Shown here in pieces: positions 34,917 through 45,122 of a DNA stretch of 64,000 bases (position 1 is its first letter; each line of letters starts with the position of its first letter). Source of the stretch: Psychrobacter urativorans (GTDB lineage Bacteria > Pseudomonadota > Gammaproteobacteria > Pseudomonadales > Moraxellaceae); contig NZ_CAJHBR010000004.1 of assembly GCF_904846695.1 (NCBI RefSeq), positions 62,001 through 126,000 on the forward strand, given 5' to 3'. Under the pieces are notes generated by a model. The model searched no databases. It saw only the letters and a list, made by a program, of their open reading frames with translations, and was not told where the DNA came from. The translations under genes and the position numbers were made by a program.

Positions 34917-36098
34917 ATGAACTGTGTATCGACCAAAAAACTGCTATTAGCTGGAGCCGGTCATGCTCACATTGATCTACTGCGCAGTATTATTAATAGT
35001 AGTGAGCCACCGAAACATTTGCAAATCACTTTAGTTACTGAGCAGCCACAGACTATCTATTCAGGGATGTTGCCGGGTTGGATGGCGGGGCACTATAACC
35101 TTGCTGATATCAGTATTGATGCCCAAGCACTCTGTGAGCAGGCAGGGGTGACTCTCATCCAACAGTCACTAGCCAAAGTAGATGCTGCCTCTGGCATAGT
35201 AACGACTGCTGACGATAAGCAATTGGATTATGACGTTTTGTCTTTAAACACCGGTGCCAATACAGATTTGCGGTGGCTCAACAAAGCGCAAGATCAGCTG
35301 CCAGCTAATACTGAAACAGCCGTAGTTCCTACACAATCTCCTACACAACTTCCTACACAAGTGGTTGCTGTGCGTCCGATATCGTTGTTTATCGAGCGTT
35401 GGCAGCAGATTATCGAAGAGGCTAAACAGTCTGCATGCTACCGGCTGGCTGTAGTCGGTGCTGGGGCTGCTGCTACAGAGTTGGTGCTGGCAGCACAGTA
35501 TGCTTTGCGGCGTATCAATCCTAATCACCAAGCTTATTTGGTCTGTGGGGAGGAGCTATTATCGGGCTTTAATCAACGCTTTAAAAAACAAGTTATCAAG
35601 CAGCTACATAGATATAAAGTACAGATAGTTTACGAGCGTGCTTTGGGCTATAGCGAAGGTCAGTTGCATACTAGCCGTCAACCATTAGCTATTGATGCGC
35701 TGATAGCTGCTACGGGAGTCACTGGTTCTGCTTGGACAAAACATACTGATCTTAGTACTGTCGATCATGGCTTTATCGCCGTCAATGAGGTGCAGCAAAG
35801 TATCTCGCACCCGAATGTATTTGCAGTGGGCGATGTGGCTACTCGAGTGGACCAAAAGATGGCGCACTCAGGGGTGCATGCGGTACGTGGCGGGGCAGTA
35901 GAAGCGGACAACTTGCTCGCTTATTTAGCAGATCAGCCTTTACATAGCTATGATCCAAGGCTCCGTACTTTGTACTTATTATCTTGTGGGGATAAATATG
36001 CCATCGCCAGTTGGGGCGATTATAGCTTACAAGGCCGTTGGGTTTGGCAGCTAAAAAAACGTATTGATAAACGCTTCGTAAAGGTAGGATTTAACTAA
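34917..36098 (+). CDS. FAD-dependent pyridine nucleotide-disulfide oxidoreductase, SelD-associated type
   Basis: 393 residues. The N-terminal dinucleotide-binding motif is LLLAGAGHAHIDLLRS; this GGGHAH-type signature marks NDH-2-like flavoproteins that in many organisms are fused to selenophosphate synthetase (SelD). A second nucleotide-binding loop is VVGAGAAATEL, and the C-terminal FAD contact is VFAVGDVAT. The SelD half is absent. Next to two transferases of the former rSAM/selenodomain-associated families and ArsS, it is likely part of, or a partner to, the arsenosugar gene group, but a 261-base gap separates it from arsS. Confidence 0.8.
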   Translation: MNCVSTKKLLLAGAGHAHIDLLRSIINSSEPPKHLQITLVTEQPQTIYSGMLPGWMAGHYNLADISIDAQALCEQAGVTLIQQSLAKVDAASGIVTTADDKQLDYDVLSLNTGANTDLRWLNKAQDQLPANTETAVVPTQSPTQLPTQVVAVRPISLFIERWQQIIEEAKQSACYRLAVVGAGAAATELVLAAQYALRRINPNHQAYLVCGEELLSGFNQRFKKQVIKQLHRYKVQIVYERALGYSEGQLHTSRQPLAIDALIAATGVTGSAWTKHTDLSTVDHGFIAVNEVQQSISHPNVFAVGDVATRVDQKMAHSGVHAVRGGAVEADNLLAYLADQPLHSYDPRLRTLYLLSCGDKYAIASWGDYSLQGRWVWQLKKRIDKRFVKVGFN

Positions 36099-36295
36099 AA
36101 GGTGGCTAGTTAGATAGAAAAAATAACGTTATTAGACATAAATTGTCATTAACAATAAGCTATTATTGATTAGATAAACTATACATTAGTTAAGATCCTT
36201 AGTGCCTTTTTTTCATATTTTTTTGTGTGCTTTTTTATACATTTTAGCTTTGTGCTAATAAAGTTTGTACGCTACTGGTTATAACTAATTACTAA

Positions 36296-36307
36296 TAGCC
36301 GCGGCTA
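36296..36307. promoter_or_regulatory. Perfect 12-bp palindrome upstream of arsS
   Basis: TAGCCGCGGCTA lies 52 bases before the arsS start, just downstream of a TATAAC. Position and symmetry fit a repressor site, but no ArsR-type gene is in the window and no known consensus is matched. The rest of the 36099-36359 gap is AT-rich with T runs. Confidence 0.35.
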
Positions 36308-36359
36308 AAAGGCTATCCTGTTATCATTAAATATATTATTAATAAGGTTTTATACCATT

Positions 36360-37340
36360 ATGAAATCTACCATAAAGTTACTAGAGCATACTGATTTCCC
36401 TGCTATTAAACGACGAGAGTTAAAGATTCTGCAAGTTAATATGGGGTATTTGTGCAATATGTCCTGCGTGCATTGTCATGTCGCAGCTAGTCCTTATCGT
36501 ACTGAAATGATGTCACGGGCATTAGTGGAGCTGATACCCCAAGTGCTACAAGCGCAGAATATCGATACGTTAGACTTAACCGGCGGTGCACCTGAGATGC
36601 ACCAAGACTTTAAATATCTCGTCAAAGCTGCCCGAGCCTTGGGGGTGAAAGTAATTGACCGTTGTAACCTGACTATTCTGATGGAAGAAGGTTATGAGGA
36701 TATGGCAGGTTTTTTAGCTGATAATCAAGTGGAAGTAGTGGCTTCGCTACCTTGTTATTCGCTAGAAAACGTCGATAAACAGCGTGGCAAAGGGGCCTTT
36801 GATGGCAGTATTTTGGGCTTACATAAGCTTAATGCTTTGGGTTATGGAAAAGCGGACTCTGAGCTTGTCTTAAACTTAGTCTATAACCCGCAAGGGGCTA
36901 CATTGCCACCTAATCAGCAACAGTTAGAAGATGATTATAAGCATGAGCTAAAACAGCATTTCGATATTGAGTTTAATCAATTATTTGCGCTAACCAATAT
37001 GCCTATTCAGCGTTTTGGCGCCGTATTATTGGCTAAGAATGAGTTTCATCCTTATATGAACTTGCTCAAAGACAATTATATGGCTGACAATCTAAAAGAT
37101 GTGATGTGCCGTGAGACTATTAGCGTTAACTGGCTGGGGGAGCTATTCGATTGTGATTTTAATCAGCAATTAGAGATCCCAGTGGCTAATAAATCGCGCC
37201 GACATTTAGCTGATTTACTGATTAAGAACCCTAGCGGTGATGATATCGCTATTGCTGATCATTGCTATGGCTGTACTGCTGGGCAAGGCAGTAGCTGTGG
37301 CGGCGCTCTAGACGAGGAAGCAGAAAAAGCTCAAGCCTAG
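36360..37340 (+). CDS. arsS: Arsenosugar biosynthesis radical SAM protein
   Basis: 326 residues. The [4Fe-4S]/SAM motif is CNMSCVHC (Cys32, Cys36, Cys39), with DLTGGAPEM for SAM binding, and the C-terminal Cys-rich domain (DUF3641 type) ends in HCYGCTAGQGSSCGG. ArsS is reported to attach the 5'-deoxyadenosyl group of SAM to dimethylarsenic, making the arsenosugar precursor dimethylarsinoyl-adenosine. The same-strand run down to arsM supports the assignment. An AAGG lies a little far (12 bases) from the ATG. Confidence 0.92.
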   Translation: MKSTIKLLEHTDFPAIKRRELKILQVNMGYLCNMSCVHCHVAASPYRTEMMSRALVELIPQVLQAQNIDTLDLTGGAPEMHQDFKYLVKAARALGVKVIDRCNLTILMEEGYEDMAGFLADNQVEVVASLPCYSLENVDKQRGKGAFDGSILGLHKLNALGYGKADSELVLNLVYNPQGATLPPNQQQLEDDYKHELKQHFDIEFNQLFALTNMPIQRFGAVLLAKNEFHPYMNLLKDNYMADNLKDVMCRETISVNWLGELFDCDFNQQLEIPVANKSRRHLADLLIKNPSGDDIAIADHCYGCTAGQGSSCGGALDEEAEKAQA

Positions 37341-37399
37341 TTTTATGCTCTATAGCAATAATCTAGGCCTACTAATATTTTATATATAAAGGACAACCT

Positions 37400-39589
37400 A
37401 TGAAAAAGCTATTGATTGTCCTAGTGGTTATTTTGGTTATCGCTGGATTCTTTTTATCTGGCTTCAATGATTTGTTAACCTTAGAGGGTATCCAAGCGCG
37501 TTTAAGCCAATTCTATCAATGGCGCGATGACACGCCACTGCTTGTTGGTGGTCTATTCTTCTTAGCTTATGTACTCATCGCCGCCTTTTCGTTACCGGGC
37601 GCTGCGCTGATGACGTTGCTGGCTGGGGCGTTATTTGGCTTGTGGTGGGGTTTATTGTTAGCCTCATTCGCTTCTAGTATTGGGGCGCTGTTTGCATTTT
37701 TAGCCTCACGTTATCTGTTACGTGACAGCTTTCAAACGAAGTTCGCCAGCAAACTAGATAGTATCAACCAAGGTATAGAAAAAGACGGTGGCTTTTATTT
37801 ATTTACCTTACGACTGCTACCTTTATTCCCATTTTTCTTAGTTAATATTTTGCTGGGTCTAACCAATATTAAGACTTGGACTTACTATTGGGTCAGTCAA
37901 TTAGGCATGATCGCAGGTACTTTTGTCTACGTCAATGCTGGAGTGCAGTTGGCACAAATTGATAGTCTTAAAGACATCATATCGCCAATGTTACTGGTCT
38001 CCTTTGCCTTATTAGCAGTGTTTCCATTACTTGCCAAAAAAGGTCTAGATTGGTACAAAGCTCGGCAGGTTTATAAAGGCTGGCATAAGCCAAAATCTTT
38101 TGATCGTAATATGGTGGTTATCGGTGCCGGTGCGGCCGGATTAGTATCGTCGTATATTGCCGCTACTGTAAAAGCCAAAGTTACTTTAGTCGAAGCGCAT
38201 AAAATGGGCGGCGATTGTCTAAATTACGGTTGTGTACCTAGCAAGTCGCTGATTAAGAGTGCCAAAGTGGCTCATGACATGCGTCACGCTACTGATTATG
38301 GTCTACAAAATGTAGCCGTTGAATACGACTTTAAGTCAGTGATGGCACGGATACAGCGCATTATTGCGACTATTGAGCCGCATGATAGTGTCGAGCGTTA
38401 TACCAACCTTGGTGTCGATGTGGTCAAAGGCTATGCAACTATTATTGATCCTTGGACAGTAGAGATTGCCAAGGAAGATGGTACTAAGCAGCGACTGAGC
38501 GCTCGTAGTATTGTTATCGCTGCTGGTAGCCAACCCTTTATACCACCGATTGTAGGGCTTGAGAATGTTGATTATCTGACCAGCGATACGCTATGGGAGG
38601 CGCTTAGTCATCAATCAGCGCCTCCTAAGCGCTTAATCATCGTTGGTGGCGGTCCGATTGGCTGTGAGCTGGCGCAAGCTTTTGCCCGTTTAGGCTCTAA
38701 AGTGTCCCAAGTACAACGGGGTACGCAGCTACTGAATAAAGAAGACAGTGAAGTTGCGGATTATGCCAAGAGTTGTCTAGAAGCGGATGGCGTACAAGTA
38801 TTATTACAGCATGATACGCTGCGCTGCGAGCGTGTCGATGGTAGGCAGTATCTGATAGTCAAAGATACTAGCGCCGCTGACAGTATTGCTGATAACGACA
38901 CTGATAACGACACTGAGATCGCACTTGAATTCGATGCGATGATTATTGCTGTTGGCCGTAGTGCCCGTATGAGTGGTTATGGGCTTGAAAGCTTAGGCAT
39001 TGATACTAAAAACACCGTCGTCACTAATGACTATCTCGAGACTAAGTTCCCTAATATTTTAGCGGCAGGTGATGTGGCGGGCCCTTATCAGTTCACTCAT
39101 GTCGCCTCGCATCAAGCTTGGTATGCGGCGGTTAATGCTTTGTTTGGTAGTTTTAAAAAGTTTAAAGTTGATTATCGAGTTATTCCTTGGGTGACCTTTA
39201 TCGATCCTGAAATTGCTCGGGTGGGTCTTAATGAATACCAAGCTAATGAAAAGAATATAAAGTTTGAAGTGACTCGTTACGATATTAGCGATCTAGATAG
39301 AGCTATCACTGACACACAAGCTACTGGTTGGGTCAAAGTGTTGACAGTACCCAATAAAGACAAAATCTTAGGCGTGACCATCGTTGGTACTCATGCTGGT
39401 GAGTTGCTCGCTGAGTATGTGCTGGCTATGAAACATGGTCTTGGACTGAACAAAATCTTAGGGACTATCCATACTTATCCTACTATGAGTGAAGCGAACA
39501 AATACGCAGCAGGTGAGTGGAAACGCAATCATGCACCGCAGAAGCTATTAGCCTGGGTAGAGAAATATCATCGATTTAAACGGAGTTAA
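37400..39589 (+). CDS. TVP38/TMEM64 (VTT) domain fused to mercuric-reductase-like flavoenzyme
   Basis: 729 residues, two modules. Residues 1-230: membrane domain of the TVP38/TMEM64/DedA-like VTT group with SLPGAALMTLLAGALFG and FTLRLLPLFPFF. Residues 235-729: class I pyridine nucleotide-disulfide oxidoreductase, with GAGAAG near 243, the redox-active CLNYGC pair (Cys273, Cys278), a second GGGPIGCE loop, AAGDVAG, and the dimer-side His-Glu pair in IHTYPTMSEAN. It likely carries electrons or reduces a disulfide-type or thiol-bound substrate at the membrane. This fusion occurs next to arsS in other genomes. A low-complexity Asp/Asn insert lies near 490-510. Confidence 0.9.
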   Translation: MKKLLIVLVVILVIAGFFLSGFNDLLTLEGIQARLSQFYQWRDDTPLLVGGLFFLAYVLIAAFSLPGAALMTLLAGALFGLWWGLLLASFASSIGALFAFLASRYLLRDSFQTKFASKLDSINQGIEKDGGFYLFTLRLLPLFPFFLVNILLGLTNIKTWTYYWVSQLGMIAGTFVYVNAGVQLAQIDSLKDIISPMLLVSFALLAVFPLLAKKGLDWYKARQVYKGWHKPKSFDRNMVVIGAGAAGLVSSYIAATVKAKVTLVEAHKMGGDCLNYGCVPSKSLIKSAKVAHDMRHATDYGLQNVAVEYDFKSVMARIQRIIATIEPHDSVERYTNLGVDVVKGYATIIDPWTVEIAKEDGTKQRLSARSIVIAAGSQPFIPPIVGLENVDYLTSDTLWEALSHQSAPPKRLIIVGGGPIGCELAQAFARLGSKVSQVQRGTQLLNKEDSEVADYAKSCLEADGVQVLLQHDTLRCERVDGRQYLIVKDTSAADSIADNDTDNDTEIALEFDAMIIAVGRSARMSGYGLESLGIDTKNTVVTNDYLETKFPNILAAGDVAGPYQFTHVASHQAWYAAVNALFGSFKKFKVDYRVIPWVTFIDPEIARVGLNEYQANEKNIKFEVTRYDISDLDRAITDTQATGWVKVLTVPNKDKILGVTIVGTHAGELLAEYVLAMKHGLGLNKILGTIHTYPTMSEANKYAAGEWKRNHAPQKLLAWVEKYHRFKRS

Positions 39590-39593
39590 AGAT

Positions 39594-40439
39594 ATGTTAT
39601 CAGTTACTCATCTAGTTAGTCGTTCAACCCCACTTGTAGTCAGTAGCATAATAGCAAAAACGGCTATGGCCACTTCTATACTGCTAGCGAGTGCCGCCGC
39701 TTATGCTGACTTTAATCATAGCAGTTGGGATAGCTTGTTAAATAAAAACGTTACTATGACCAACAGTAGCAAAGCCTCAGTAGTTAATTACGCGGGCATG
39801 AAAGCTGATAAAAGCAAGCTTGATAGCTATATGGATGCCACTAGCAAAGTCAGCCAGTCACAATTCAATGCTTGGAGCAAAGATGAGCAGTTGGCATTTT
39901 TGATCAACGTTTATAATGCGGGCACCGTAGAGCTAGTGTTGACTAAATATCCCAATATTAAGTCTATCAAAGACATCGGTGGGGTGTTTGGCTCCCCATG
40001 GAAGCAGAACTTTATCTCCCTATTAGGGAAAACGCGTTCACTCGATGATATAGAACACAATCTCATTCGCGGCTCTAAACGCTATAACGAACCACGCATT
40101 CACTTTGCAGTAAACTGTGCTAGTATCGGCTGTCCGGCGCTATTAAACGATGCTTTTACTGCCAGTAAATTGGACAAGCAGTTAGAGCAAGTGACTAGTA
40201 GTTTCTTAGCAGATACTAGCCGTAACCGTCTCCAAGGCAATACATTACAGGTCTCGCCAATTTTTAAATGGTATAAAGAAGATTTTGCTACTAGCTGGCG
40301 TGGTACTAATGATTTAGCAGGATTTTTGTCTCGTTATAGTCCTTCTTTAGGGCTTAATAGCGGCCAAGCAGCCCAGCTAAAAAACGGCAAAATCAAAATT
40401 GGCTATAGTAGTTATAACTGGAATTTAAATAAAAAATAA
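39594..40439 (+). CDS. DUF547 exported protein
   Basis: 281 residues, starting 4 bases after the previous stop codon with GGAG upstream. A signal peptide with cleavage near AAAYA (residue 38) precedes the DUF547 domain: FLINVYNAGTVELVLTKYP, GSPWKQNF, LDDIEHNLIRG and HFAVNCASIGCPAL. DUF547 has a papain-like/transglutaminase-type appearance with the conserved Cys in NCASIGCP, but its activity is not established. It is a frequent partner of the TVP38 fusion gene. Located in the periplasm. Confidence 0.88.
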   Translation: MLSVTHLVSRSTPLVVSSIIAKTAMATSILLASAAAYADFNHSSWDSLLNKNVTMTNSSKASVVNYAGMKADKSKLDSYMDATSKVSQSQFNAWSKDEQLAFLINVYNAGTVELVLTKYPNIKSIKDIGGVFGSPWKQNFISLLGKTRSLDDIEHNLIRGSKRYNEPRIHFAVNCASIGCPALLNDAFTASKLDKQLEQVTSSFLADTSRNRLQGNTLQVSPIFKWYKEDFATSWRGTNDLAGFLSRYSPSLGLNSGQAAQLKNGKIKIGYSSYNWNLNKK

Positions 40440-40459
40440 TTTACAAAAGTAAAATTACT

Positions 40460-41044
40460 ATGGATTTAGCGTTATTCGACTTTGATGGCACTATTACTGA
40501 TAGCGATGCTTTCACAAAATTTGTATTTTTTGCTGCTGCTAAACAGCGCATAGCTACCGGTAAGCTGTTGCTATTACCAGAAATCATAGCTTATAAAGCT
40601 CGATTAACGACTGGTAAACGTATTCGGCGCAAGATATTTAGCCATGGCTTTAAAGATACCTTTGCTGTGGATATAGCAGCGCAAGCTGAGAATTTTGCCG
40701 CAGAAATTTTGCCAAATTTAGTACGCCCAGAGGCATTGGATAGAATCTATTGGCATCAAGATAGGGGCGATGAGGTTAGAGTAGTTTCCGCCTCGCTAGA
40801 TTTGTATCTAACGCCTTGGTGCGCGCAACATAATATCGCCTTATCCTGCAATCAAGTTGAAGTAATCAACGGCAAGCTGACCGGTAATTTTATCGGCAAT
40901 GATTGCAGTGCTGAGGAAAAAAGACGCCGGGTTGAAAGCGCTTATGAGCTAGACGCTTACGCAAAGGTTTATGCTTATGGCGATACTTCTGAGGATAGAG
41001 CGTTGCTAGAACTAGCGGATTATGCTTTTTATCGTCATTTTTAG
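40460..41044 (+). CDS. HAD-IB family phosphatase-like protein
   Basis: 194 residues. HAD motif I is FDFDGTITDSD (Asp7 nucleophile, Asp9), motif II the VVSASLDLYL serine, motif III a lysine in EEKRRR, and motif IV YGDTSEDRALL. Family IB members hydrolyse phosphoserine-like or other small phosphate esters. It starts 20 bases after the DUF547 stop codon and lies in the arsenosugar run, where a phosphatase step after adenine removal is conceivable (inference). Confidence 0.88.
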   Translation: MDLALFDFDGTITDSDAFTKFVFFAAAKQRIATGKLLLLPEIIAYKARLTTGKRIRRKIFSHGFKDTFAVDIAAQAENFAAEILPNLVRPEALDRIYWHQDRGDEVRVVSASLDLYLTPWCAQHNIALSCNQVEVINGKLTGNFIGNDCSAEEKRRRVESAYELDAYAKVYAYGDTSEDRALLELADYAFYRHF

Positions 41045-41107
41045 AGCATTACTTTTAGAGCAGCACTTTTATCGAGGATTGCAGGCTATGCTGGTGTTAA
41101 ATATAGA

Positions 41108-42004
41108 ATGGGTATTATGCTGATAAAAAAAAGCTGGCGCTGTTTTACAGTATTACCGCCCTCAATGGCTAAATGGATAGCGAGGGTGAATAACAATTCG
41201 GTAACTGCCCAAGGTAGCAGTAGTCAAATTAACAGCAGCGCCTTTAATAGCAGGGCAGCAGAAGCAAGCGGCGTGTCCATTATTATCCCCCTCCTTAATG
41301 AAGCGGATAATCTGCCTCGATTGTTTAATAATATCACTAGCCTCAAGCCATTAGCGCAGCAAGTGCTACTAGTCGATGGCGGCTCTACAGACCAATCGCT
41401 TAGCGTTGCTGAGCGTCTCATTAAGCAGTACAACCAGCAACTAGCTAATAAAGACTCTACTATTGAGTGGCAAATTATCGATTCTGCTGCTGGTCGGGCT
41501 ATGCAAATGAATACTGGGGCCGCACAAGCTACAGGCAATATATTATTGTTCCTACATGCCGATACGCAGCTGCCAGAAGACGCTATTAGTCATATCAAGC
41601 AAGTACTGAATCAAGCTAATAGTAATTATAAGTGGGGGCGTTTTGATGTGCGTCTAAACAGTCGCCAGCCGTTGCTATGGCTAGTCAGTACTATGATGAA
41701 TGCTCGTTCACGCTTGACTGCAATTGCTACCGGCGATCAGGCTATTTTTATAACAAAATCGCTATTTGAGCAAATCGGTGGCTATCCTCAGCAGCCTTTA
41801 ATGGAAGACATACAGCTATGCAAAAATTTAAAAGGCATAGCTAAGCCTGCTTGCTTAACCCTTAGAGTGACTACCTCAGCTAGGCGTTGGCAGCAACACG
41901 GCACTTGGCGAACGATACTGCTCATGTGGCATCTGCGCTTCGACTACTGGCGTGGCGTGTCAGCTGAAGCGATAAAACAGCGCTACTATAAAACCAATAA
42001 TTAG
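41108..42004 (+). CDS. TIGR04283-family glycosyltransferase (arsenosugar-associated)
   Basis: 298 residues. The GT-A core starts near residue 57 with SIIIPLLNEADNLPRL, then VDGGSTDQS, the NTGAAQATGNILLFLHADTQLP stretch with the HAD metal-binding acidic site, and the C-terminal MEDIQLCKNLK. This matches the family formerly named rSAM/selenodomain-associated transferase 2, now linked to arsenosugar synthesis. About 54 residues precede the core, longer than usual, and no clear ribosome binding site was found before ATG 41108 or ATG 41117, so the start is uncertain. Confidence 0.85.
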   Translation: MGIMLIKKSWRCFTVLPPSMAKWIARVNNNSVTAQGSSSQINSSAFNSRAAEASGVSIIIPLLNEADNLPRLFNNITSLKPLAQQVLLVDGGSTDQSLSVAERLIKQYNQQLANKDSTIEWQIIDSAAGRAMQMNTGAAQATGNILLFLHADTQLPEDAISHIKQVLNQANSNYKWGRFDVRLNSRQPLLWLVSTMMNARSRLTAIATGDQAIFITKSLFEQIGGYPQQPLMEDIQLCKNLKGIAKPACLTLRVTTSARRWQQHGTWRTILLMWHLRFDYWRGVSAEAIKQRYYKTNN

Positions 42005-42129
42005 AAAACAATAACTAGAAACTAATGATTAGAAATTAGAAATTTTAATGCTCAGCTTATAAACAGCATAGTACTTATATCGAGTGCAGGAACAGTGGTG
42101 AGCAGAGAAAAACAGGCAACAGGATAGCT

Positions 42130-42837
42130 ATGGCAAAACCAGTCGCAACATCAATAGCGCAAACTAAGGTGCAGCAAATAAATAACCGAACTTGCATCAT
42201 CATCTTTGCTAAATATCCAGCTAAAGATAAGGCTAAGACCCGTCTACAACCAGCATTAGGTGTTGACGGTGCAGCAAAGATGGCACGGCAGTTATTATTA
42301 CATAGTATTGAGCAAGCAGTAGCTAGCGGATTTAGCGTAGAGTTATGTGTCAGTCCAGCGCCAACAGATCGCTGCTGGCAAGACCTTGAGTTGCCGGCAA
42401 GCTTATGCTGGTCAGCACAAGCATCAGGTGACTTAGGATTACGTATGCTAACTGCTAGTGAGAATGCCTTAAAGAGCTTTGATAAGGTGTTGCTAATAGG
42501 TAGCGATTGTCCTGATTTGACAGCCGAACGATTGCAAAAATCAGTGCAACAACTACAGCAGCATGATACGGTAATGATTCCAGCGTTCGATGGCGGTTAT
42601 GTGTTACTTGGCTTTAAGCAAGTCGCTGCTAGCTTATTCTCGGATATCATTTGGAGTACCAGTAGCGTCGCTAAGATAACTCAGCAGCGTATTGCGGCGC
42701 TGCATTGGACATTAGCACTATTAGAGCCTTTGGCTGATATCGATGAGCCTACCGATCTACAATATTTACCACTAGGCTGGCTCGATAGCGAGATTAAGGT
42801 TAATAACCATAGTGAAGTTAATGCCCCTGTTCATTGA
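42130..42837 (+). CDS. TIGR04282-family glycosyltransferase (DUF2064, arsenosugar-associated)
   Basis: 235 residues. Family marks: IIFAKYPAKDKAKTRL near the N-terminus (the FAKxPxxGxxKTRL-type nucleotide-sugar loop), the GDLGLRM helix, IGSDCPDL and DGGYVLLGF, all typical of the DUF2064 nucleotidyl-/glycosyltransferase fold formerly called rSAM/selenodomain-associated transferase 1. It is paired with the TIGR04283 protein upstream. AGGAT precedes the ATG. It probably activates or transfers the sugar moiety in the same pathway. Confidence 0.87.
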   Translation: MAKPVATSIAQTKVQQINNRTCIIIFAKYPAKDKAKTRLQPALGVDGAAKMARQLLLHSIEQAVASGFSVELCVSPAPTDRCWQDLELPASLCWSAQASGDLGLRMLTASENALKSFDKVLLIGSDCPDLTAERLQKSVQQLQQHDTVMIPAFDGGYVLLGFKQVAASLFSDIIWSTSSVAKITQQRIAALHWTLALLEPLADIDEPTDLQYLPLGWLDSEIKVNNHSEVNAPVH

Positions 42838-42924
42838 TAATGAAGGAAGTAATTTGACCCTATCGTCTGGATGAATAAAGTATTTCACTAACTGAAATCA
42901 ATACCCCTTAAAAGGCAATGCAAT

Positions 42925-44010
42925 ATGTATGATGTTGTGCAAGATTATTATGGCAAACAGCTACAGAGCACTGATGATTTAAAAACCTCGGCTTGCTGTG
43001 ATATCAGCAATATGCCCAGTTGGCTCAAGCCGCTACTAGCTAATATTCACCCTGAAGTACTAAGTCGCTATTATGGCTGTGGTTTAGTATGCCCGGCGCT
43101 GCTACAAGGTTGTCGAATCTTAGATTTAGGCTGTGGCTCAGGACGTGACGTTTATGCTCTAGCCCAATTAGTGGGTGCGACTGGGCAAGTAGTGGGTGTC
43201 GATATGACCGCTGAGCAGTTAGCAATCGCTAAGCAGTATCAGGACTATCACAGTGACAAATTTGGCTATGATAATGTGACCTTCTTAGAAGGTTATATTG
43301 AAAAGTTAGATGAGCTAGGTTTAGAAGCTAATAGCTTCGATATTATCGTCTCTAACTGTGTGATTAACCTATCGCCTAATAAAGCTGCGGTGATGGCTAG
43401 TGTCCAGCGTTTACTTAAGCCTGGCGGCGAGTTCTATTTCTCTGATGTCTATGCCGATCGACGCATTCCGCAGCAACTAATAGACGATCCTGTGCTTTAT
43501 GGCGAATGTCTCAGTGGTGCATTATACTGGAAGGACTTCGAACGTTTAGCCGCTAATGCGCAATTCTTAGACCCTAGGCTGGTTGAAGATCGCCCCTTAG
43601 AAATTACTGATCCTGCCCTAGCGGCTAAAATAGGCAATATTCAGTTCTTTTCAGCAACTTATCGTTTATTTAAGAGTACGGCGATAGAGGATGCCTGTGA
43701 GGATTATGGACAAGCGGTTATCTATAAAGGTAGTATCGATCAGTTAGCTCAGCGCTTTGATCTCGACAAGCATCATCGTATTGAAACTGGTCGGGTGTTT
43801 CCTGTTTGTGCCAATACTTATAATATGCTCAAAGAGTCACGTTTTGCGCCGCATTTTGAGTTTATCGGTGATACTAGCCAGCATTATGGAATTTTTGCCG
43901 GTTGCGGTGAGGCCCTACCTTTTGTTCAGCAAGCAGCCATTGAGCAATCAAACATAGCACCAGCACTTAGCCTCTCTAGTAAGTCGAATACGTCAAGCAG
44001 CTGTTGTTAA
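42925..44010 (+). CDS. arsM: Arsenite S-adenosylmethionine methyltransferase
   Basis: 361 residues. The SAM-binding motif is ILDLGCGSGRDVYAL. Arsenite-binding cysteines are represented by the N-terminal Cys24-Cys25 pair, the Cys in YGECLSG (in the 190s), and others. The chain ends in SSSCC, a C-terminal double cysteine common in ArsM of marine and cyanobacterial types. ArsM converts As(III) stepwise to mono- and dimethylated species in the cytoplasm; the dimethyl product feeds ArsS. It is the last plus-strand gene before the bidirectional terminator. Confidence 0.93.
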   Translation: MYDVVQDYYGKQLQSTDDLKTSACCDISNMPSWLKPLLANIHPEVLSRYYGCGLVCPALLQGCRILDLGCGSGRDVYALAQLVGATGQVVGVDMTAEQLAIAKQYQDYHSDKFGYDNVTFLEGYIEKLDELGLEANSFDIIVSNCVINLSPNKAAVMASVQRLLKPGGEFYFSDVYADRRIPQQLIDDPVLYGECLSGALYWKDFERLAANAQFLDPRLVEDRPLEITDPALAAKIGNIQFFSATYRLFKSTAIEDACEDYGQAVIYKGSIDQLAQRFDLDKHHRIETGRVFPVCANTYNMLKESRFAPHFEFIGDTSQHYGIFAGCGEALPFVQQAAIEQSNIAPALSLSSKSNTSSSCC

Positions 44011-44101
44011 TTGTTTATGGGTAACTGTCTATTTTGACAAGCTTATTACTTATGCTGTTTTTGCGCATTGATGGTTAGCTAAAAATTGCATAGTGCACAA
44101 T

Positions 44102-44134
44102 AAAAAAGGCCATCGATTAATTTGATGGCCTTTT
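44102..44134. terminator. Bidirectional terminator between arsM and the phosphorylase gene
   Basis: An 11-bp stem (AAAAGGCCATC/GATGGCCTTTT) with an A run on the left and T4 on the right closes both convergent genes. Confidence 0.9.
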
Positions 44135-44156
44135 ATGCTACATAGTAGAAGTTAAA

Positions 44157-45053
44157 TTACTCAGGTAATAGGGCAATGAGCTTAGCTCTAATGGCTTCAT
44201 CCATATCTTGAACAGGAGTGACTAAAGCTTGTGCTAGAGCATTATGAGCAATGGATTCAGGCTGTTCAGCAGCTAGTAATGCTACTGCTTGTTTGATCAC
44301 ATGCTGAGCATTGTCAGCATTTTTTATAAGGTTTTGAATAGCGTAATCAGCACTGACTGCTTGCTCAGTAGGATGCCAACAGTCGAAGTCGGTGACTAAA
44401 GCTAAGGTAGCATAAGCGATGCTAGCTTCGCGTGCTAATTTGGCCTCGGGCATATTAGTCATACCGATAATATCTGCTTGCATCTGTCGATACCAGTGCG
44501 ACTCAGCACGGGTAGAAAACTGCGGGCCTTCGATACAGACATAAGTGGCTTTTGCATGGCATTGACCGTCGTTGACTTTGGCTTGCGCATAAGCCCGTTG
44601 CAAAATGTCGGCTACCGCAGGGCACAGAGGATCAGCCATCGACACATGAGCCACTGCACCAGTACCGAAAAAAGTGCTAGCACGGTGTTTGGTTAAGTCG
44701 ATCATCTGATCAGGTACTACCATGTCTAGAGGCTTTAGCGATTCTCTCAATGAGCCAACCGCTGACACTGAGATTATATAGCGCACCCCCAAGGTTTTAA
44801 GGGCGTAGATATTGGCACGATAAGGAACCTTAGAAGGAGTGAATCTATGCCCTTGACCGTGGCGAGTCAAAAAAGCCACGGTAACCCCATTTAGTTCACC
44901 AAGGACGATATCGTCTGACGGCTTACCATAAGGTGTCGCTATACTAACGCTACGTTTATTGGTTAGATCCTGCATTTGATACAAGCCGCTACCACCAATG
45001 ATGGCAATCGTAGCAGTATGTGGCGCTGGGTCGTCGATTAATGGAATGGTCAT
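44157..45053 (-). CDS. mtnP: S-methyl-5'-thioadenosine phosphorylase-type nucleoside phosphorylase
   Basis: 298 residues from ATG 45053, which has AGGA eight bases upstream; the frame opens 12 codons earlier. It is a family 2 phosphorylase: IIGGSGLYQM, TRHGQGHRF, IEGPQFSTRAES, MTNMPEA. The specificity loop reads TDFDCW; the Asp-x-Asp matches MTAP enzymes that hold the 6-amino group of adenine, not the inosine-type MTIP enzymes. It should split methylthioadenosine into adenine and methylthioribose-1-phosphate. It is convergent with arsM. Confidence 0.88.
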   Translation of the reverse strand: MTIPLIDDPAPHTATIAIIGGSGLYQMQDLTNKRSVSIATPYGKPSDDIVLGELNGVTVAFLTRHGQGHRFTPSKVPYRANIYALKTLGVRYIISVSAVGSLRESLKPLDMVVPDQMIDLTKHRASTFFGTGAVAHVSMADPLCPAVADILQRAYAQAKVNDGQCHAKATYVCIEGPQFSTRAESHWYRQMQADIIGMTNMPEAKLAREASIAYATLALVTDFDCWHPTEQAVSADYAIQNLIKNADNAQHVIKQAVALLAAEQPESIAHNALAQALVTPVQDMDEAIRAKLIALLPE

Positions 45054-45122
45054 TAAGGTTTTCCTAAGGATGAATAAGTGACTACTCATTCTCGCACAGA
45101 ACAGACAAAAAACAGATGTTAT

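Follow-up and report, generated by a model that had tools for sequence, protein, structure and literature searches.

In marine algae and seafood, arsenosugars are the principal form of organic arsenic. ArsM makes methylated arsenic, and ArsS yields 5′-dimethylarsinoyl-adenosine. Both enzymes are encoded in a gene cluster within the window, the 64-kb stretch of the 3.46-Mb Psychrobacter urativorans genome analysed here, whose closest named relatives by ArsS are Psychrobacter. At the edge of this cluster lies a gene for a nucleoside phosphorylase of the methylthioadenosine phosphorylase (MTAP) family, which is the main subject of this analysis. Adenosylation of arsenic by a radical S-adenosylmethionine (SAM) enzyme has been described (PMC12159101), and the window shares both ArsM and ArsS with the Synechocystis pathway, as cited in later papers (PMC8552651, PMC12159101). 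A cyanobacterial Pseudanabaena plasmid cluster likewise joins ArsM and ArsS, with TVP38 and mercuric reductase encoded separately beside them, and has no match to MTAP, TIGR04283, or TIGR04282 within 10 kb. The NCBIfam arsenosugar set comprises TIGR04167 (ArsS), TIGR04283, and TIGR04282, and all three exceed their cut-offs here in one gene run; none of the NCBIfam arsenosugar names that were matched denotes an adenine-removing enzyme. An algal arsenolipid scheme, given in a review of microalgal glycoconjugates, does have adenine lost, through an “adenosyl nucleosidase”, before the sugar is passed on, as we propose for the bacterial cluster, and names no gene for it in the available part of the paper (PMC10456119). 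Loss of adenine as such is thus an existing idea. Where the algal scheme invokes a nucleosidase, the window carries a phosphorylase gene, and phosphorolysis would keep the sugar activated. Among the matches listed from open-licence literature, to the extent that the sources were available, no adenine-removing gene, phosphorolytic route, or activation step was found. A search of that literature for arsenosugar together with methylthioadenosine gave no match, and the matches to arsenosugar with phosphorylase bore titles that did not concern arsenosugar biosynthesis.

The cluster is real and of arsenosugar type, as the initial annotation had proposed; this type is already known. All eight open reading frames named there are present on the plus strand at the starts it gave, with ArsS, TIGR04283, and TIGR04282 over NCBI curated cut-offs. 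The interval drawn around them was one gene short, as the convergent MTAP gene on the minus strand belongs to the cluster as well. The description of the pathway as nearly complete is not supported for the genes listed there: None of them was of a family that could remove adenine from the ArsS product, for which the adjacent MTAP would be the fitting enzyme. What appears to be new, from sequence comparison and fold models, is an MTAP dedicated to the cluster and a revised reading of TIGR04282. Combined, they would make a chemically consistent route after ArsS that lends itself to direct testing.

This route would lead through ArsM, ArsS, MTAP, TIGR04282, and TIGR04283 to an oxo-arsenosugar, a reading whose prospects we judge to be somewhat better than even. 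ArsM would convert arsenite to dimethylarsenic, and ArsS would add a 5′-deoxyadenosyl group to give dimethylarsinoyl- or dimethylarsino-adenosine (DDMAA), a shape-mimic of methylthioadenosine (MTA). Because trivalent DDMAA is MTA with As(CH3)2 replacing SCH3, an MTAP is a natural candidate for the removal of adenine; together with phosphate it would strip the base and leave 5-deoxy-5-dimethylarsino-ribose-1-phosphate. A ribose-1-phosphate is what a sugar nucleotidyltransferase needs, and TIGR04282 would join it to a nucleotide to form a nucleoside diphosphate (NDP)-arsenoribose. An NDP-sugar, in turn, is what a glycosyltransferase of family 2 (GT2) needs, and TIGR04283 would move the arsenoribosyl group onto an acceptor of glycerol type, be it glycerol itself, glycerol phosphate, or phosphatidylglycerol. 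In some strains a phosphatase, the HAD protein here, may trim phosphate, and the flavoproteins probably hold arsenic or thiols reduced. Phosphorolysis inverts to α, nucleotidyl transfer keeps α, and an inverting GT2 enzyme gives a β-riboside. The two inversions, by the phosphorylase and the GT2 enzyme, would thus produce a β-riboside, and natural arsenosugars are β-ribosides. Gene content, linkage, co-occurrence, predicted folds, and the base-site motif are observed; every substrate and the order of steps after ArsS are inferred.

That MTAP is tied to the arsenic cluster and not to methionine salvage follows from its distribution, its solitary status, and the missing next step of salvage. In a sample of 149 genomes of the family, with presence defined as a score over the curated cut-off, MTAP (TIGR01694) occurs in 28, made up of 26 of the 30 with ArsS and two without it (G083 and G116); none of the other 117 has it. 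The cluster MTAP is the sole match to the phosphorylase superfamily PF01048 in its own genome, and none of the six congeneric ArsS-minus genomes tested had a PF01048 match. In methionine salvage, the next enzyme after MTAP is the isomerase mtnA; it was detected in none of the 149 family genomes, the window's own included, while 9 of 14 controls were positive. The TDxDxW motif, whose Asp-x-Asp we take to be the adenine base site of MTAP, is invariant in 19 of 19 cluster MTAPs. The window protein falls below the cut-off of the MTAP equivalog model PRK07432 (410 vs. 453 bits). It is a very close match, at 543.6 bits over 293 residues, to RSFP (PDB 4glf/4glj), a putative MTAP from an Antarctic soil metagenome (PMC3561333). 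In the available text of the RSFP paper, the protein was detected by its rhodamine B fluorescence in the soil library, its MTAP activity was left for later study, and no word beginning with “arsen” occurs (PMC3561333).

Linkage between MTAP and ArsS recurs in other lineages. Genes in the mapped loci were called at a 100-bit threshold using profiles from near relatives, such that distant or GC-rich genes can escape. Of 42 named Psychrobacter ArsS loci, 41 include MTAP in their mapped stretch; the exception (L034) is a 7.5-kb contig. Of 38 named loci outside Psychrobacter, two (L095 and L111) were dropped for lack of an ArsS call and 14 of the other 36 had less than 8 kb of flank; among the remaining 22, flanked by 8 kb or more on both sides, 14 have MTAP. 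By our estimate, the chance of a lone MTAP falling within 10 kb of ArsS in a 3–4 Mb genome is below 1%. Gene order varies between lineages while the linkage persists. MTAP is convergent in Psychrobacter, Acinetobacter, and Marinimicrobium, and divergent from ArsS in Paraperlucidibaca. In Janthinobacterium and Massilia glaciei it shares the strand of ArsS and immediately precedes it, in Limnohabitans and Hydrogenophaga it comes right after a phosphoesterase-like gene, and in genome G267 it is 5 bp from ArsS on the same strand. A Cupriavidus plasmid carries on one strand, in this order, ArsS, the flavoenzyme, a VTT protein, TIGR04283-like and TIGR04282-like genes, and MTAP, and a Burkholderia glumae plasmid has TIGR04282, TIGR04283, and MTAP consecutively. 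The ArsS query matched 47 Burkholderia records of the plasmid collection, one of these partially, and the MTAP query matched 47. A tree of 52 MTAPs (74 gathered, 22 close non-cluster MTAPs omitted) places the cluster proteins in two clades, both apart from the 28 others. One (support 100/99) unites 16 cluster MTAPs from Moraxellaceae, Marinimicrobium, two other families (G267 and G511), and B. glumae; the other (96/97) holds eight of Burkholderiales type, among them L110, from a bin titled Akkermansia that is probably misbinned. Our reading of these sequences, on a limited sampling of other MTAPs, is that the two clades probably represent two recruitments of MTAP.

The predicted folds bear on the two enzymes that would follow. 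The initial annotation, as does NCBIfam, called TIGR04282 a glycosyltransferase, an assignment that its model does not support. The AF2 model (pLDDT 91.4) has as its first-ranked Foldseek match 3cgx, followed by the nucleotidyltransferases CofC/FbiD (Rv2983, MM2497), which share its fold, 3-phosphoglycerate guanylyltransferase, KdsB, IspD, and GlmU. The protein is below the cut-off of the F420 CofC family (40.7 vs. 105 bits). On the strength of the model, TIGR04282 more likely activates a sugar phosphate than moves a sugar, despite its database name. The TIGR04283 model (pLDDT 86.7) matches GT2 enzymes, including ArnC and GtrB, and the protein matches Pfam Glycos_transf_2 at 60.7 bits (cut-off 23.3).

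The two families closely follow ArsS. TIGR04167 is over its cut-off in 30 of the 149 family genomes, and TIGR04283 and TIGR04282 in 32 each; both occur together in 30 of 30 ArsS genomes versus 2 of 119 others, the same G083 and G116 (Fisher p ~2e-29, uncorrected for relatedness). The annotation's expectation of co-occurrence above chance is thus strongly borne out. Within the window's genus, 21 of 41 genomes have ArsS, and five genera contain both genomes with it and genomes without, so that the match is unlikely to reflect one inherited event. ArsM, at E ≤ 1e-30, is found in 26 of 30 ArsS genomes versus 2 of 119 others, again G083 and G116. The window ArsM is below the cut-off of every named ArsM model that it matches (NF008823, 168 of 263 bits; the arsenosugar ArsM model NF038099, 94 of 400), and its assignment as a probable ArsM is by similarity alone. 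ArsS itself has a CxxxCxxC motif and a GSSC tail, read in the sequence; its C-terminal tail is CYGCTAGQGSSCGG. A GxxU selenocysteine motif is listed for TIGR04167 in the available part of one source, and the GxxC of the window protein corresponds to it (PMC13188914).

G083 and G116 keep the other cluster genes, MTAP included, without ArsS over the cut-off. In G083, a decayed ArsS tail retaining 12 of the 17 residues of the C-terminal motif lies between the gene for the flavin adenine dinucleotide (FAD) protein and that for the VTT fusion (L112:5860-6244), and it occurs once across the six frames of the 19-kb locus. No ArsS match was obtained in G083 or G116 by tblastn at 1e-3, and the G083 remnant consequently rests on a short stretch; at the G116 locus (L113), no ArsS remnant was found. 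That another enzyme stands in for ArsS in G083 is unsupported, as the place of arsS retains the C-terminal motif. Both genomes are natural arsS-minus strains useful for comparison. Four others (G023, G057, G118, and G126) hold ArsS, both glycosyltransferase families, and MTAP without ArsM at the same threshold; conceivably, such strains may take methylated arsenic from neighbours.

Several observations weigh against the proposed route. ArsM was not found in those four ArsS genomes, and MTAP is retained in G083 and G116 without an intact ArsS. Conversely, four of the 30 ArsS relatives (G017, G019, G029, and G061) have no MTAP over the cut-off: In three, the sole PF01048 protein is a distant one encoded on a separate contig, and G019, at 86% completeness, shows no PF01048 match at all. 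The co-occurrence counts carry no correction for kinship beyond the five mixed genera. The top fold match of TIGR04282, 3cgx, bears the title “putative nucleotide-diphospho-sugar transferase”. On a Thiodictyon plasmid, ArsS occurs together with TIGR04282 and a TIGR04283-like gene and with no MTAP match within 10 kb, and none was found within that distance of ArsS on the Hymenobacter and Pseudanabaena plasmids either. Among the 14 controls, Synechococcus elongatus has ArsS and is the only one without a PF01048 match. The phylum sample comprised 398 genomes, 115 of them over the ArsS cut-off, and 40 loci were hand-picked, roughly one per genus, from 117 ArsS genomes; nine were dropped for less than 5 kb of flank or lack of an ArsS call. 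In the 31 left, TIGR04283 occurs in six and TIGR04282 in seven, and MTAP lies in the mapped stretch of only two: one of the six with both glycosyltransferase families, none of the one with a single family, and one of the 24 with neither. Genome-wide, MTAP is present in 91 of 117 ArsS genomes versus 130 of 281 others, and is thus common without ArsS. A phylum-wide link between MTAP and ArsS was therefore dropped, given its proximity in just 2 of 31 loci, and the claim is confined to the kinds of cluster listed above.

Other roles for MTAP can be weighed against the same data. The enzyme might clean up 5′-deoxyadenosine from uncoupled ArsS turnover, or MTA, and return adenine, with the sugar path using another enzyme. 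MTAP-type enzymes can accept 5′-deoxyadenosine, the link to ArsS suits a by-product role, some ArsS genomes manage without MTAP, and MTAP sits beside ArsS in two loci (L082 and L170) where neither glycosyltransferase family was called. ArsS, on the other hand, is reportedly redox-neutral with multiple turnover, and genomes of the genus that lack ArsS also lack MTAP outside G083 and G116; they carry weak TIGR04167 matches, probably to other radical SAM proteins. The link to TIGR04282, which by its fold needs a sugar phosphate, is better explained by arsenoribose-1-phosphate formation than by scavenging, which we regard as unlikely. Far less credible is that MTAP is an ordinary methionine-salvage enzyme that sits beside the cluster by accident. 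Its family assignment is indeed MTAP, plasmid records annotate it so, and in Azospirillum a relative of the cluster MTAP adjoins mtnA. The salvage role was nevertheless rejected: mtnA was found in none of the 149 family genomes, MTAP is missing from 117 of the 119 that lack ArsS, its linkage recurs in rearranged orders, and the cluster MTAPs form separate tree clades.

A further alternative follows the database names, with NCBIfam terming TIGR04282 and TIGR04283 alike an “arsenosugar biosynthesis glycosyltransferase”: The two would act on free or nucleoside-bound arsenoribose, with HAD as the phosphatase step. The title of 3cgx is in line with this, and the phosphoesterase-like family in Burkholderiales clusters makes a phosphatase step possible. 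Beyond 3cgx, though, the fold matches of TIGR04282 that were named are all nucleotidyltransferases, and HAD occurs in the window and 1 of the 141 mapped loci, so that this scheme seems improbable. A variant compatible with the route through NDP-arsenoribose concerns its last step and its purpose, namely that the cluster serves mainly for detoxification or storage of arsenic in an arsenosugar phospholipid, with TIGR04283 using a membrane lipid acceptor. The TIGR04283 model also matches the lipid-phosphate GT2 enzymes ArnC and GtrB, and a membrane VTT domain is encoded nearby; the GT2 fold itself is silent on the acceptor. We consider this variant possible, with the chances leaning against it.

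The full gene set is listed below. Between arsS and arsM the intergenic gaps range from 4 to 125 bp, so that one transcript is plausible; promoter and terminator scans of the cluster were at chance level, no better than shuffled sequence.

Table 1. Genes of the arsenosugar-type cluster, in window coordinates, with the family match of each
Feature	Position	Strand	Match
TIGR03169 (“Nterm_to_SelD”)-like FAD/NAD(P)-dependent oxidoreductase, accessory	34917..36098	+	295 bits, just below cut-off 310
ArsS, radical SAM DDMAA synthase, Cys form	36360..37340	+	TIGR04167 464 bits, cut-off 300
VTT (TVP38/DedA) membrane domain fused to MerA-like pyridine nucleotide-disulfide oxidoreductase, accessory	37400..39589	+	Pfam VTT_dom, Pyr_redox_2/Pyr_redox_dim
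DUF547 protein, signal-like N-terminus by sequence reading, accessory	39594..40439	+	Pfam DUF547 92 bits, cut-off 27
HAD-IB phosphatase, local insertion	40460..41044	+	TIGR01490 122 bits, cut-off 98.3
TIGR04283, GT2-fold glycosyltransferase	41108..42004	+	268 bits, cut-off 182
TIGR04282, CofC-like, proposed sugar-1-phosphate nucleotidylyltransferase	42130..42837	+	198 bits, cut-off 134
ArsM-like arsenite methyltransferase, C-terminal Cys-Cys	42925..44010	+	best NF008823 168 bits, cut-off 263
MTAP-family nucleoside phosphorylase, convergent with arsM	44157..45089	−	TIGR01694 325 bits, cut-off 274.85

The FAD protein, the VTT fusion, and DUF547 are read as accessory. The HAD phosphatase, taken in the initial annotation as a pathway enzyme, is found in the window and, among the 141 mapped loci, only in L119 (from G080), and was rejected as a core step. 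In Burkholderiales, a phosphoesterase-like family bearing GGLYGN and NGDFHWFD motifs (L089:12713-13732, L094:12351-13361, L202:15327-16346) adjoins MTAP or ArsS; it gave no NCBIfam match (one member scanned) and no Pfam match (two scanned, from L089 and L079). A phosphatase step may therefore exist via unrelated enzymes. In the fusion protein, the VTT domain spans residues 70–182, and the remainder resembles flavoenzymes of the mercuric reductase/lipoamide dehydrogenase type. Its makeup is explained by the Pseudanabaena plasmid, where each half is encoded by a gene of its own beside ArsM and ArsS. Of the 42 named Psychrobacter loci one has the fusion, versus 25 of the 36 other named loci, and the fusion is ruled out as essential for this genus. 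DUF547 accompanies 38 of the 42 Psychrobacter loci and the FAD protein 24. Limnohabitans carries a fusion of the FAD protein to SelD (L094:7471-9930), which fits the selenocysteine ArsS forms of other bacteria.

Plasmids contribute further observations. The plasmid pJNE5-X3_NDM-1 of Acinetobacter portensis (L203, NZ_CP096121.1), typed as mobilizable, carries an arsenosugar cluster with MTAP and a phosphate transporter gene. On this plasmid and on that of Burkholderia glumae (L202, NC_012718.1), a sigma-70 factor, CcdA, thioredoxin, and a YiiX-like hydrolase are encoded near arsS, a set that is possibly a shared regulation or redox module. The Hymenobacter volaticus plasmid (L258) combines ArsS, TIGR04283, DUF547, and epimerase/short-chain dehydrogenase (SDR) genes, while neither TIGR04282 nor MTAP was matched within 10 kb; it possibly represents a different pathway branch. 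A Mycetohabitans rhizoxinica megaplasmid (L254, NZ_CP062173.1) encodes an MTAP relative among aminotransferase, NUDIX, and HAD genes that all run on one strand; ArsS is not annotated there, and MTAP may have a further dedicated use in this setting.

Among the listed matches in open-licence literature, as far as these were available, no genes are assigned to the steps that follow ArsS, and this gap is now occupied by named, testable candidates: a phosphorylase with a near-twin crystal structure (4glf), a nucleotidyltransferase, and a GT2 enzyme. Arsenosugar clusters are also carried on plasmids. Tentatively, and with a likelihood that we place a little short of even, bacteria would have twice recruited an MTA phosphorylase to make arsenoribose-1-phosphate, which TIGR04282 would convert to NDP-arsenoribose, the donor for arsenosugars and possibly for arsenosugar phospholipids. 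If true, NDP-arsenoribose would be a new kind of compound, an arsenic-containing nucleotide sugar.

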